64,000 bases of DNA. It comes from Fervidobacterium sp. (GTDB lineage: Bacteria; Thermotogota; Thermotogae; Thermotogales; Fervidobacteriaceae). Numbering within the stretch: position 1 is the stretch's first letter; every line of letters starts with the position of its first letter. Where the stretch lies: positions 62,001 to 126,000 of the forward strand of contig JANZZV010000005.1 in assembly GCA_026419195.1 (NCBI GenBank), read 5' to 3'. Under the pieces are notes generated by a model. That model ran no database searches, was not told the origin of the DNA, and worked only from the letters and a program-made list of their open reading frames with translations. The position numbers were made by a program, and so were the translations under genes. Below are positions 15,825 to 22,415 of the stretch, piece after piece.

Positions 15825-15856
15825 AAAAAAATATCCTGACTTTGGAGTCAGGATAT
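15825..15856 (-). terminator. Terminator of the purine operon
   Basis: An 11-bp perfect stem, ATATCCTGACT (15831-15841) with AGTCAGGATAT (15846-15856), loop TTGG. On the minus strand the hairpin is followed by six T residues. It lies 26 bases beyond the purL stop codon, so it ends the uraA-pur transcript. Confidence 0.85.
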
Positions 15857-15881
15857 TTTTGCTTTAATTAAAATGTAAAAA

Positions 15882-17681
15882 TCAATATATATGTCCTATT
15901 TTCTCTTTCGGGAGATCTGTCTGAGGTTCGCCAAAAACAAGGATCAATTGATGAACAGGTTCATGTTTTGGCGTTCTGATTCTTGGATTGAAGCCAATTT
16001 TTCTCAATATGGTTTCAAAAGTGATTCTTCTTGAATAATCATGCATACTGAGCACAAAGCATTTTTGGTTGACGATCTTTTCTATTTCACTCCAAAGTTT
16101 CTTTTCACGTTCCATTTGAAAGTCTTTAAACCCCACAGCGTACACAGGTCCTTTCTTAGGTTTGTTTATGAGTTGTGTCTCAACTTTTCCAACCATCCCA
16201 ACTACCAGTGTTGGTGGTATACCTTTACCTTTGTAAGTATTGTAAAGTGAAGCGTTACCGGATGCAACTGGTACATCTGAAAATTCACACGCATCTTTTA
16301 ATCCCCTCATTTGGGCAGCAAGTCCTAAGGGATCGATATCTGGATCTGCGTAGTTTATGCCATCAGTGATAGCGATAGGCTTAGCACCAACAGAAAGTGT
16401 CTTTCTAACACTTTCAAGTACCGTTATATAAGCTCCCCAATAAGGACTTTGTAAACCAATATCTGCCCTACTGTGAATAGATAAAGAATATGCAACCGAG
16501 TTTTTCACTCTCATTACGGCTGGTCCAAATCCCGGGGGTAAAATGGTATCTGTACCAACCATATAGTCGTATCTTTCAAAAACTTGGTTTGCATCAACAT
16601 CTAAAAACCTTATCCATTTGAATTTTGGTATGCTGGATGGTTCGTAATCAAATGTAGGTTCTTCTGGCGATTCTTCTATTAGTTTGGCTGGGACGTTTAG
16701 TACAGCTTCATCTTTGTAAAGTGCGATGTATCTTCCATCACTTGTAACCTCAGCCACCACATCTCCATACAGCAAATGCTTCCTAACTATTCGTAAAATT
16801 TCATCGACTTTCTCAGGCGATGTAACAACTGCCATTCTTTCCTGACTTTCACTTATTAAAATTTCAACAGGATGCATATCTGGTTCCCTAAGAGGTACTT
16901 TATCAAGATGAACGATTGCTCCAAGGTTACCCCGCGCAACTAGTTCACTGGTGGCGGACAGTACACCTCCTGCCCCAAGATCCTGTGCTCCTTCGACCAA
17001 ACCTTTGTCTATCATTTCAAGAAATGCTTCTATTAGGTTCTTTTCTGCAAATGGATCTCCCACTTGAATTGACAATTTTGTTGCTTTTTCACCTGTTAAA
17101 TCTTCAGATGCGAAAGATGCACCGTGTATTCCATCGCGTCCTGTAGCACCACCAAATATGATAATAACTTGACCGGGTCGGGAAGCTTTTGAGGGAATTA
17201 AATTCTCATGTTTTCCTACACCCACTGCCATTACGTTAACAAGAGGATTATGCTTATAGTAATTGGATATTCTCAGCTCACCACCTACGGTGGGGACTCC
17301 AATAGAGTTACCGTAATCAGCTATACCTTCTATTATCCCATCAATAATTTTATGCATGTGTAGCGAGTCAAGAATCGCCGTAGGACGCGCTCCCATGGCA
17401 AGCACGTCTCTTATGATTCCACCGACTCCTGTAGCTGCACCATTAAATGGTTCTATAGCACTTGGATGATTGTGACTTTCTACTTTGAAGGCAAGGAAAT
17501 GATAGTCATCTAAAGTTACTACTCCGGCATTACCTCCGGTACCAATTTTTGGTAACTGCCTTATGTATCCTTTGGTATGCGAATAGCCACAGTGTTCACT
17601 CCACATTACAGTAAAGGCTTCTATTTCCGCCTTCGTTGCCTTTCTTCCAAGTTTTGATTCCAATATTTGAAGGTACTTCAT
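15882..17681 (-). CDS. purL: Phosphoribosylformylglycinamidine synthase, large subunit
   Basis: PurL forms formylglycinamidine ribonucleotide from FGAR, ATP and ammonia delivered by PurQ. This is the short PurL, 599 residues, used with separate PurS and PurQ. Two AIRS-like halves are present. The first contains EHCGYSHTKG, FKVESHNHPSAIEPFNGAATGVGGIIRDVLAMGARP and GATGRDGIHGASFAS; the second has GFGPAVMRVKNS, PYWGAY and SVGAKPIAITDGINY. It is the last gene of the operon and overlaps purQ by 4 bases. The short size matches T. maritima PurL. Confidence 0.96.
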   Translation of the reverse strand: MKYLQILESKLGRKATKAEIEAFTVMWSEHCGYSHTKGYIRQLPKIGTGGNAGVVTLDDYHFLAFKVESHNHPSAIEPFNGAATGVGGIIRDVLAMGARPTAILDSLHMHKIIDGIIEGIADYGNSIGVPTVGGELRISNYYKHNPLVNVMAVGVGKHENLIPSKASRPGQVIIIFGGATGRDGIHGASFASEDLTGEKATKLSIQVGDPFAEKNLIEAFLEMIDKGLVEGAQDLGAGGVLSATSELVARGNLGAIVHLDKVPLREPDMHPVEILISESQERMAVVTSPEKVDEILRIVRKHLLYGDVVAEVTSDGRYIALYKDEAVLNVPAKLIEESPEEPTFDYEPSSIPKFKWIRFLDVDANQVFERYDYMVGTDTILPPGFGPAVMRVKNSVAYSLSIHSRADIGLQSPYWGAYITVLESVRKTLSVGAKPIAITDGINYADPDIDPLGLAAQMRGLKDACEFSDVPVASGNASLYNTYKGKGIPPTLVVGMVGKVETQLINKPKKGPVYAVGFKDFQMEREKKLWSEIEKIVNQKCFVLSMHDYSRRITFETILRKIGFNPRIRTPKHEPVHQLILVFGEPQTDLPKEKIGHIY

Positions 17682-18376
17682 ACTTTTGCACCTTCTTTTT
17701 CTTGAAACATCGCTAGCTTTTTAGTTTTTATATAATTAAAAACACTTAAAAAAATCCTCAGACCATCATCTGAACCAAGAATTTTTTCAATTGCCCTCTC
17801 TGGATGTGGCATTAATCCTAAAATATTCTTTGCATGGTTCGTTATTCCTGCGATAAGGTCTTCTGAACCATTAACATCTTCTGTGTATTTTAAAACTGGT
17901 ATGGTACCATTGACTTTGACATACCTTCCAAAGCCATGAGCAATTGGTAATCTGATGATCTCACCTTTTTGAAAATATGTTGTAAATGGCGTTGTGTTAT
18001 CGACAATTTCAAGCTCAACAATTTTACAAATAAAATGCCCACATGCGTTCTGAAGTAACGCACCGGTTAATAATCCCATTTCAACAAGGATTTGGAAGCC
18101 GTTACATATTCCGATAACAAACCCTCCAGAGTTAACAAAATCTTTTATTTTATAAGCTATTGGTTCTCTTGCTGCCACAGCCCCTACTCTCAAATAATCA
18201 CCATACGAAAAACCTCCAGGTAATACTAAAAGATCAGCATTAATGTCTTGGTATATATCTATGAGTTCGGCATCAAAACCTACATATTTCAACGCCCACA
18301 GCGCATCCCTATCGCAGTTACTTCCAGGGTAGACAACTACTTGTGCTTTTGGTACGTTTGGTGTGGGAATATTCAT
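17678..18376 (-). CDS. purQ: Phosphoribosylformylglycinamidine synthase, glutaminase subunit
   Basis: PurQ is the class I glutamine amidotransferase that hydrolyses glutamine and passes ammonia to PurL. It has 232 residues. The nucleophile is Cys91 in GICNGFQ; the His and Glu of the triad are in LMPHPERAIE near the C-terminus. GSNCDRD near the start and LPGGFSYGDYLR are typical of PurQ rather than other amidotransferases. It overlaps purL by 4 bases and purS by 4 bases, so translation is coupled and the 1:1:2 complex genes stay together. Confidence 0.96.
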   Translation of the reverse strand: MNIPTPNVPKAQVVVYPGSNCDRDALWALKYVGFDAELIDIYQDINADLLVLPGGFSYGDYLRVGAVAAREPIAYKIKDFVNSGGFVIGICNGFQILVEMGLLTGALLQNACGHFICKIVELEIVDNTTPFTTYFQKGEIIRLPIAHGFGRYVKVNGTIPVLKYTEDVNGSEDLIAGITNHAKNILGLMPHPERAIEKILGSDDGLRIFLSVFNYIKTKKLAMFQEKEGAKV

Positions 18377-18621
18377 ATTTCTTTCACCTCAAATGTTTCA
18401 GTAACCGTGTTAACAAGTAACTTTTCGCAAGCTTTCTCTACTTGCCGTAGTGCTTCTTCTTTCGTTTCTGCATCTATTTCCAAGTGTATGGATTTGCCAA
18501 GACGCAGATTCTTCACTGGTATGTCGTATTCCTCGTTTAAGACCCTCTTAATAGTTTCACCTCTTGGATCACGCACATGACTCTTGTATTGGATATCAAT
18601 CATAAATCGATAGATTGGCAT
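18373..18621 (-). CDS. purS: Phosphoribosylformylglycinamidine synthase, PurS subunit
   Basis: An 82-residue PurS protein, the small subunit that bridges PurL and PurQ in the three-part enzyme. The typical pattern MIDIQYKSHVRDPRGETIKRVL is followed by LRLGKSIHLEID and VEKACEKLLVNTVTETFEV. The ATG at 18621 has GAGGTGGTG upstream inside the end of purC, giving a 22-base overlap with purC. An internal ATG at 18603 would shorten the protein by six residues and lacks its own ribosome site. Confidence 0.95.
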   Translation of the reverse strand: MPIYRFMIDIQYKSHVRDPRGETIKRVLNEEYDIPVKNLRLGKSIHLEIDAETKEEALRQVEKACEKLLVNTVTETFEVKEI

Positions 18622-19295
18622 AGTCTTAACACCACCTCGTATTTTTCTAATGGATTACCTAAATCTCTTCTGTATATATCTTTGTCAAATATCTCTCCTG
18701 ATTTTCTCAATCTCATCGTATCTGGTGAGATTTCATCACCTAGGCATACTTTACCTTCAGCATCTATCCCAAATTCAAATTTCATGTCCCACAATTCAAG
18801 ACCATTTTTTTCAAAAAATTCTTTCAAATATCTTCCCGCTTCCCTAGCTTGTAATATTATATTTTCTGCAATTTCCCTTGTTACTATTCCAAGAACCTCC
18901 AGATGTTCTATACACATAAGTGGATCGTGTAGTGTGTCACTTTTGTAAGTAAACTCGACAAGTGGAGATGATAACTCTTCACCTTCAACTCCACCATACC
19001 TTCGCACAAAAGAACCAGCTTTTTTAAACCTAACTATCACCTCAAGTGGAAACATTTTCAGCTTTCTTGCCCTTATTTTGTTGGGTGGTATGTACTCTAT
19101 AAACATTGTATAGATGCCTTTATAGTTCAAGTATTTCATCAATCTTGCTGTAATTTGCGAACATATAAAACCTTTATTATAAAGTACATCATGTTTGGCC
19201 CCATCCCCAGCAGTTATGTCATCTTTAAAATGCAATATAACTTCTGTGCCAAGATCTTCTACTTTCTTTGTCTTCCCTTCAGAGATTATGTTCAT
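18600..19295 (-). CDS. purC: SAICAR synthetase
   Basis: PurC joins aspartate to CAIR with ATP to make SAICAR. From the ATG at 19295 it has 231 residues, starting MNIISEGKTKKV. Family motifs seen are ITAGDGAKHDVLYNKG, IPPNKIRARKLKMFPLEVIVR and the LWDMKFEFGIDAEGKVCLGDEISPDTMRL stretch. The frame is open upstream to 19361, but that part overlaps purE, and GAGGTGA five bases before the ATG fixes the start. It lies between purE and purS. Confidence 0.95.
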   Translation of the reverse strand: MNIISEGKTKKVEDLGTEVILHFKDDITAGDGAKHDVLYNKGFICSQITARLMKYLNYKGIYTMFIEYIPPNKIRARKLKMFPLEVIVRFKKAGSFVRRYGGVEGEELSSPLVEFTYKSDTLHDPLMCIEHLEVLGIVTREIAENIILQAREAGRYLKEFFEKNGLELWDMKFEFGIDAEGKVCLGDEISPDTMRLRKSGEIFDKDIYRRDLGNPLEKYEVVLRLCQSIDL

Positions 19296-19314
19296 GATTG
19301 TCACCTCGTATGTA

Positions 19315-19848
19315 CTAAAATTGTTCTTGCTGGCAGTATTTTTCGTAACCAATCTCTTCAAGTTTCAACGCTTTATCAATCACTTCGTTTCTAAGTTTTT
19401 CTTTATACTTTCTTAGCTTATCTCTTAGTTCCTTATACTTCAAAGACAGCATCTGAACGGCTAGCAAACCCGCATTTTGCGCGTTATTTATCGCAACAGT
19501 TGCAACAGGTACACCCTTTGGCATTTGTACAATCGAAAGCAAAGAATCCAAACCATCAAGTGAAGAACCTTTCACAGGAACACCTATCACCGGGAGAACG
19601 GAAATAGAAGCAACCATACCAGGTAAATGTGCAGCACCACCAGCTCCAGCGATAATTACTTCTATTCCTCTTTGCTCTGCAGATTTTGCATATTCATACA
19701 TCCTTTCTGGTGTTCTGTGCGCTGAAACAATTGTGATTTCGTAAGGTACGCCAAAGTGTTCCAAAACTTCCGCCGCTTGCTTCATAACTTTTAAATCAGA
19801 ATCACTTCCCATTATTATTCCAACTAAAGGTACTGATAAGTTGCTCAT
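19315..19848 (-). CDS. purE: N5-carboxyaminoimidazole ribonucleotide mutase
   Basis: PurE moves the carboxyl group of N5-CAIR to make CAIR. It has 177 residues: [10 protein letters not shown] near the start, [29 protein letters not shown] and [17 protein letters not shown]. These features and the neighbouring purK mark the class I mutase. A basic helical tail of about 30 residues ([17 protein letters not shown]) follows the core and is somewhat longer than usual. The ATG is preceded by GGAGGG; purK ends 12 bases upstream. Confidence 0.95.
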
Positions 19849-22336: not shown

Positions 22337-22371
22337 TCCTCCTTTCTCGCCTCACTGGGCGAATTTAAAGG
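22337..22371 (-). promoter_or_regulatory. PyrR-type binding hairpin over the uraA ribosome site
   Basis: Read on the minus strand: CCTTT (22371-22367), AAAT, TCGCC (22362-22358), loop CAGTGA (22357-22352), GGCGA (22351-22347), a bulged G, and AAAGG (22345-22341). The hexaloop fits the CNGNGA consensus of PyrR binding loops and is followed by the purine-rich strand expected for that element. The lower stem pairs with AAAGG, the first part of the Shine-Dalgarno sequence AAAGGAGG (22345-22338). Binding of PyrR with UMP would therefore block translation. No antiterminator or terminator is present in this short leader. Confidence 0.6.
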
Positions 22372-22385
22372 CTGTATCCAGCTAT

Positions 22386-22415
22386 ATCGTACCACAAAAT
22401 TTGACAAAAAGTCAA
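22386..22415 (-). promoter_or_regulatory. Probable promoter of uraA with an inverted repeat
   Basis: On the minus strand TTGACT (22415-22410) and TACGAT (22391-22386) are 18 bases apart. The -35 is one arm of the inverted repeat TTGAC-n5-GTCAA (22401-22415), which could be an operator. The transcript would start near 22379 and begin almost directly with the PyrR-type hairpin. Confidence 0.45.

Follow-up and report, generated by a model that had tools for sequence, protein, structure and literature searches.

PyrR has hitherto been known as a pyrimidine regulator. In Mycobacterium smegmatis it reportedly acts by translational repression. In the pyr leader of Thermus, which Van de Casteele is reported to have described in 1997, the PyrR site lies over the Shine-Dalgarno (SD) sequence of a leader peptide whose coding region overlaps with a terminator. 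Attenuation of the Bacillus and pneumococcus type (Rfam model RF00515) relies on a hairpin with the loop CNGNGA and a lower stem CCUUU...AAGG. In pneumococcus UMP is the corepressor and PRPP the antagonist of PyrR, and a pyrR RNA element precedes the uracil transporter (PMC6296669). Sun 2013 (PMC3766115) covers both the pyrR motif and Thermotogales; our search of the literature for PyrR in connection with purine operons in the phylum Thermotogota found none.

The window analyzed here, that is the whole stretch of 64 kb of Fervidobacterium DNA, carries on its minus strand a uraA gene whose leader has the same loop and lower stem as the attenuation systems, and, as in pneumococcus, the element stands before a uracil transporter (PMC6296669). 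It differs from Bacillus and pneumococcus in that the leader has neither antiterminator nor terminator and the SD is masked directly, and from Thermus in that uraA itself takes the place of the leader ORF, again without a terminator.

Read on the minus strand from 22371 to 22328, the leader runs CCTTT AAAT TCGCC CAGTGA GGCGA G AAAGG AGG AAGTATT ATG, with seven bases between the SD and the start codon of uraA (22330). The sequence confirms the upper stem closing CAGTGA and the lower stem whose AAAGG opens the SD, both as described in the earlier note, and a terminator scan of the leader found none between the hairpin and the ATG, in line with its statement that no attenuator fits. Translational repression by PyrR, which it considered the best reading, is the natural one since the lower stem includes the SD and the leader has no attenuator. 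The promoter that it placed just upstream, leaving a leader made almost only of the hairpin, corresponds to TTGACT-18-TACGAT (22415-22386), a consensus match only, in a region where such matches are no more numerous than in shuffled sequences; given this promoter-like match, the leader would be about 50 nt long with the hairpin as nearly its whole content. The span 22337-22415 extends from the spacer to the -35 hexamer, the hairpin proper occupying 22339-22371. CNGNGA on at least four pairs occurs at five places in the 64-kb window, but a second stem running into an SD is found only at the uraA leader. The coordinates of all features are collected in table 1.

Table 1. Features of the uraA leader and of the operon that follows it in the window
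Feature	Position	Strand	Basis
PyrR-type hairpin CCTTTAAATTCGCCCAGTGAGGCGAGAAAGGAG	22339..22371	-	RF00515 top match in genome; conserved and covarying alignment
Hexaloop CAGTGA (pattern CNGNGA)	22352..22357	-	Loop positions 1, 3, 5 and 6 invariant, 2 and 4 variable, n = 25
Upper stem TCGCC/GGCGA, 5 bp	22362-22358 / 22351-22347	-	Sequence
Lower stem CCTTT/AAAGG	22371-22367 / 22345-22341	-	Sequence
CCTTT, 5' arm of lower stem, anti-Shine-Dalgarno	22367..22371	-	25/25 invariant (partly by construction); partner always AAAGG or GAAGG
uraA Shine-Dalgarno AAAGGAGG, first five bases forming 3' arm of lower stem	22338..22345	-	Sequence
Putative -35 hexamer TTGACT	22410..22415	-	Consensus scan, 18-nt spacer
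Putative -10 hexamer TACGAT, TG upstream	22386..22391	-	Consensus scan
uraA, NCS2 uracil permease-type transporter, 415 aa	21083..22330	-	TIGR00801 above cut-off; 3QE7
purK, 43 nt past uraA	19861..21039	-	NF004679 and TIGR01161 above cut-off
purE	19315..19848	-	TIGR01162 above cut-off
purC	18600..19361	-	TIGR00081 168.7 bits, under cut-off of 189.9; operon position
purS	18373..18621	-	TIGR00302 above cut-off
purQ	17678..18376	-	NF002957 above cut-off
purL, last gene of operon	15882..17681	-	NF010690 1152.8 bits, above cut-off
15-bp symmetrical terminator-like hairpin past purL	15827..15860	palindromic, reported on +	Terminator scan

To follow the element across the order, uraA genes with their leaders were gathered from 45 genomes. 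The hairpin lies directly 5' of the start codon in every readable close orthologue of uraA (about 67% identity or more) in f1, the family of the window, and in f2; it is thus kept before uraA in pyrR-bearing relatives, the conservation on which the earlier note had made its reading depend. No such hairpin is seen in the five readable uraA loci of f3, a family without pyrR. Twenty-five distinct 33-nt hairpin sequences align without gaps, with standard pairs in 250 of the 250 pair cells. The loop is closed by a C-G pair (CCAGTGAGG), and C15, G17, G19 and A20 are fixed while the N columns 16 and 18 vary (A/T/C and T/C/A), as expected from the PyrR loop rule CNGNGA invoked earlier; the aligned sequences were chosen by a pattern that needs CCTTTAA, CCNGNGAGG and AAGGAG, so that the selection itself accounts for part of the invariance at these places; the variable N columns, the letters of the upper stem and the uniform placement lie outside its constraint. 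Two pairs of the upper stem are found both as G-C and as C-G, with both sides changed in eight sequences each, and the covariation score is 0.251 (n = 25), versus 0.111 for shuffles and no more than 0.108 when the partners are slid. The lower stem varies at one pair only (U-A/U-G), being near-invariant because the SD fixes one of its sides; covariation therefore backs the upper stem and not the SD-masking one, which is backed by the invariance of CCTTT.

The presence of a PyrR homologue in the genome had been set beforehand as a test of the proposal. One such gene was found (L009 1474-2037), coding for a protein of 187 aa that scores 228.7 bits with NF003549 against a cut-off of 138, so that pyrR and the hairpin occur in the same genome; its only strong copy of the hairpin sits at uraA, not at pyrR. 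Among solved structures the protein is closest to PyrR proteins (195.7 bits, the best HGPRT reaching 48.5 bits), and its stretches LMRIAHEILEKNKG, VDDVLFTGRT and DRGHREFPIRPDYVGKN align with PyrR of 1NON. Some of these stretches probably hold residues important for RNA binding by the Bacillus subtilis protein, one of which, a Thr, is seemingly Met here.

A covariance model built on the 33-nt hairpin (hereafter R1) was then run on 103 genomes of the phylum, yielding 32 copies in 28 genomes at 52-60 bits and nothing else above 33; the window hairpin, which is among R1's own sequences, scores 57.7 bits. Of the 45 genomes in the order, 28 have a copy of at least 52 bits, and these are the same 28 that have pyrR; the match follows the tree of related genomes, so the number of independent events behind it is much smaller than 28. 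The remaining 17 have neither pyrR nor a copy, their best R1 score being 22.7 bits. In f10, which was outside the training of R1, the top matches (G090, G099 and G082, with 32.2, 28.1 and 23.5 bits) all lie before uraA and have a lower stem running into the SD. Inspection covered these three, the other f10 matches scoring 19 bits or less; the three belong to the four f10 genomes with pyrR, the fourth being an 80%-complete assembly. With R1, the pyrR-bearing members of f6, f8 and f9 yielded no convincing match.

Taken together, the anatomy, the conservation and the co-occurrence argue strongly for PyrR-dependent translational repression of uraA via its leader hairpin, which we regard as very probable. 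When uridine nucleotides are plentiful, PyrR-UMP would bind the CNGNGA hairpin of the 5' leader and keep CCUUU/AAAGG closed, so that the SD would be hidden and uraA remain untranslated. At low UMP or high PRPP, PyrR would leave, the lower stem, which on its own is predicted to be weak at growth temperature, would open and the ribosome could bind, thereby raising uracil uptake. With loss of uraA translation the downstream pur genes may also drop, by polarity or coupling, since uraA is the first gene of uraA-purKECSQL; this would agree with the relatives whose purE is preceded by the same hairpin, a leader ORF and a terminator.

The identity of the target fits a pyrimidine regulator, uraA coding for a predicted uracil permease and hence belonging to pyrimidine uptake. 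The closest solved structure of its product is the uracil permease 3QE7 (E 1.5e-94 over 22-408), and the Glu of the EH.G and EN.GV motifs is kept. The final His of EHVGH, which presumably has a role in E. coli UraA, is replaced by Asp. The gene heads a purine operon on the same strand, uraA-purK-E-C-S-Q-L, a point absent from the earlier note, as are the copies of the hairpin that relatives have before purE and pyrC. The listed ORF of purC begins at TTG, its true start probably being an internal ATG, and the hairpin past purL probably marks the operon end, in a region where the count of terminator-like sites is not above that of shuffles.

The same hairpin precedes purE-purC-purS-purQ-purL in six relatives, namely G017 and G018, of the same genus and with uraA undetected, and the four g3 genomes G022-G025, which carry the uraA-leader copy as well as the purE-leader copy; the operon was followed to purL in G017, G018, G022 and G025. 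In these purE leaders (L049-L054) the hairpin masks the SD of an ORF of 13-67 codons that starts 6-8 nt past it, and a second hairpin with a T-run (-13 to -21 kcal/mol) comes after the ORF start. In G017 the ORF stops immediately ahead of the terminator stem and in G022 inside it, and in G023, G024, G025 and G018 it runs through the terminator; in three g3 genomes it stops beside the ribosome site of purE. This anatomy points to control of termination: with the SD free, a ribosome would trail the polymerase and prevent the terminator from acting, and with PyrR bound there would be no ribosome and transcription would terminate. With RF00515 the four g3 leaders score 61.3-64.2 bits, above the cut-off of 54, and because of this they may already be listed in Rfam or RegPrecise, which makes the earlier note's remark on the lack of a description in Thermotogales uncertain.

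In g1/g2 genomes the pyrC leaders have a related hairpin with the lower stem GGTT/AACC instead of CCTTT/AAAGG, which opens an ORF of 68-97 codons running through a terminator before pyrC-K-D-F-E. The ORF starts with MVNLVQRGQN / MVNLV(Q/L)RGQN or close variants, coded by the hairpin (L135-L141, L149, L287-L295), and is free of stops from the hairpin to the terminator in nine of nine genomes, the other two frames having 2-9 stops each; the chance of such an open frame in dinucleotide shuffles is 0.004-0.18 per genome, and as the genomes are related these probabilities cannot be multiplied. Past the part coded by the hairpin the peptide diverges between species, so that the open frame rather than the peptide seems to be kept. 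No PyrR element was seen near pyrC at the loci examined in f2, f3 and g3, where another pyr gene may come first. In the window genome (G000; L155) contig C1 ends within pyrC, the genome's own pyr leader falling in an assembly gap, and no second copy was found. Both the purE and the pyrC leaders thus resemble the pyr leader of Thermus in having the hairpin at the start of a short ORF extending up to or across a terminator; unlike in Thermus, the leaders of the six relatives serve purECSQL.

These architectures make it conceivable, and to our mind somewhat short of an even chance, that the site is mainly a switch of the purine operon, with uraA as a passenger that replaces the leader ORF; with comparable reserve, PyrR could then halt translation of the first ORF so that transcription ends, for example through Rho, before purK. 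This reading gains from the order uraA-purK-purE, which is found in all eight g1/g2 genomes with uraA (the window and seven others), from the succession of hairpin, short ORF, terminator and purECSQL in the two same-genus genomes without detected uraA and the four of g3, and from f2, where the N-terminal part of PurH is encoded behind uraA at both loci inspected. However, g3, g4 and the inspected f10 loci have the uraA hairpin with no pur gene behind it, which indicates that uraA is itself a target, and in the window no strong intrinsic terminator was found either within uraA or where uraA gives way to purK. Regarding g4 (G026-G028), pyrC is undetected, yet all three pyrR genomes keep the uraA hairpin, as would fit a pyrimidine transporter under PyrR; here PyrR may serve uptake only.

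The stability of the hairpin bears on whether it might tune uraA without PyrR, as a plain thermolabile or constitutive structure (RNA thermometer). For the annotated fold with both stems, the predicted energy is -10.2 kcal/mol at 37 °C, -2.8 at 65 °C and -1.5 at 70 °C; the upper stem alone, with -3.4 and -2.6 kcal/mol at the latter two temperatures, is there the stabler. A variant that keeps two stems with slightly altered pairing remains the most favorable up to roughly 70 °C (-4.4 kcal/mol at 65 °C, -3.1 kcal/mol at 70 °C) but no longer holds at 75 °C. The energies at 65-75 °C come from extrapolated RNA parameters, and growth at 60-75 °C is assumed. The lower stability of the annotated form at 65-70 °C is what a thermometer might show, but such a device needs no invariant C.G.GA loop and would not vanish exactly where pyrR is missing, and we consider it very improbable. 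A lower stem that is weak at growth temperature would instead leave the SD at least partly open unless it is held, as PyrR would do in the translational repression of uraA that we favor.

The Rfam model gives a divided answer. RF00515 spans both stems in a local scan (31.5 bits), aligning upper stem, internal loop and lower stem, and in a scan of the genome (2.06 Mb) the uraA leader is the best of 17 matches with 34.9 bits, the next reaching 26.3. The check with this model, proposed in the earlier note, hence succeeds as to the rank of the locus and fails as to the score, since 31.5-34.9 bits are under the gathering cut-off of 54; a standard scan of the window at gathering thresholds reports only a tRNA and no PyrR element. 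The model has 115 positions including a downstream terminator, which the uraA leader does not have, and with that terminator included it overlooks SD-masking sites such as this one. The element is therefore filed as PyrR-type by loop, stems and co-occurrence and not by Rfam score. Twelve other loci in relatives (L275-L286), with RF00515 scores of 27-31 bits, were rejected for want of a CNGNGA hairpin, being ordinary terminators (mostly fitting the 3' part of the model) or coding sequence, and two further pattern matches in the window genome were rejected as lying in or near unrelated genes. A site for another regulator or a small-molecule riboswitch such as preQ1-II, with a weak Rfam match of 15 bits at the uraA leader (E 5.4, cut-off 47 bits), can be practically dismissed, as genes, loop and co-occurrence all favor PyrR.

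A broad pattern of the 34-nt form (YYTTTNA...YCCNGNGAGG.....AAGGAGG) retrieved at least 80 loci. Among the 80 matches listed, 58 are followed by a pyrR ORF, mainly in Actinobacteria, two by uraA (in one MAG each of Thermosipho and Thermotogae) and five others by pyrB- or pyrE-like ORFs, judged by eye; none of these 80 has an ORF with likeness to PurK, PurE, PurC or PurL directly behind it. The Thermosipho MAG (L158) shares its 34 bases identically with G028 of g4, so that Thermosipho belongs to f1, the family of the window. The actinobacterial pyrR leaders resemble the uraA leader in this form, their lower stem containing the SD and the start codon following a few nucleotides on, but they mask pyrR itself, whereas the window masks a uraA that heads a purine operon. 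The same hairpin with its SD was also observed before short ORFs in L201 2902-2935, L224 6980-7013 (Tectomicrobia), L176 (Nitrospinota) and L218 (Aerophobetes), two of which are alike (MQGIAANPRVHRPPFRTGWRFFLRPPRP / MHRTSTNLRVYRPPFRTGWRFFLRPFRP); these ORFs may encode leader peptides under PyrR control in further phyla.

A PyrR site that masks the SD is thus a known type; the lineage, the placement at uraA and, most notably, the recurrent link with purine genes go beyond it, and the use of a PyrR site on purine synthesis appears undescribed in the literature searched. The comparison suggests that PyrR control by hiding of the start site is not confined to Actinobacteria. Judging from gene order and leader anatomy, we think it reasonably likely that PyrR regulates both purine and pyrimidine synthesis in the family of the window, one type of hairpin at the first translated ORF governing uraA-purKECSQL, leader-ORF-purECSQL and leader-ORF-pyrCKDFE, and the pyrimidine/PRPP level setting the expression of the purine operon. 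If true, this would represent a direct link at the RNA level between the purine and pyrimidine pathways, made by a conserved PyrR-type site in two architectures.
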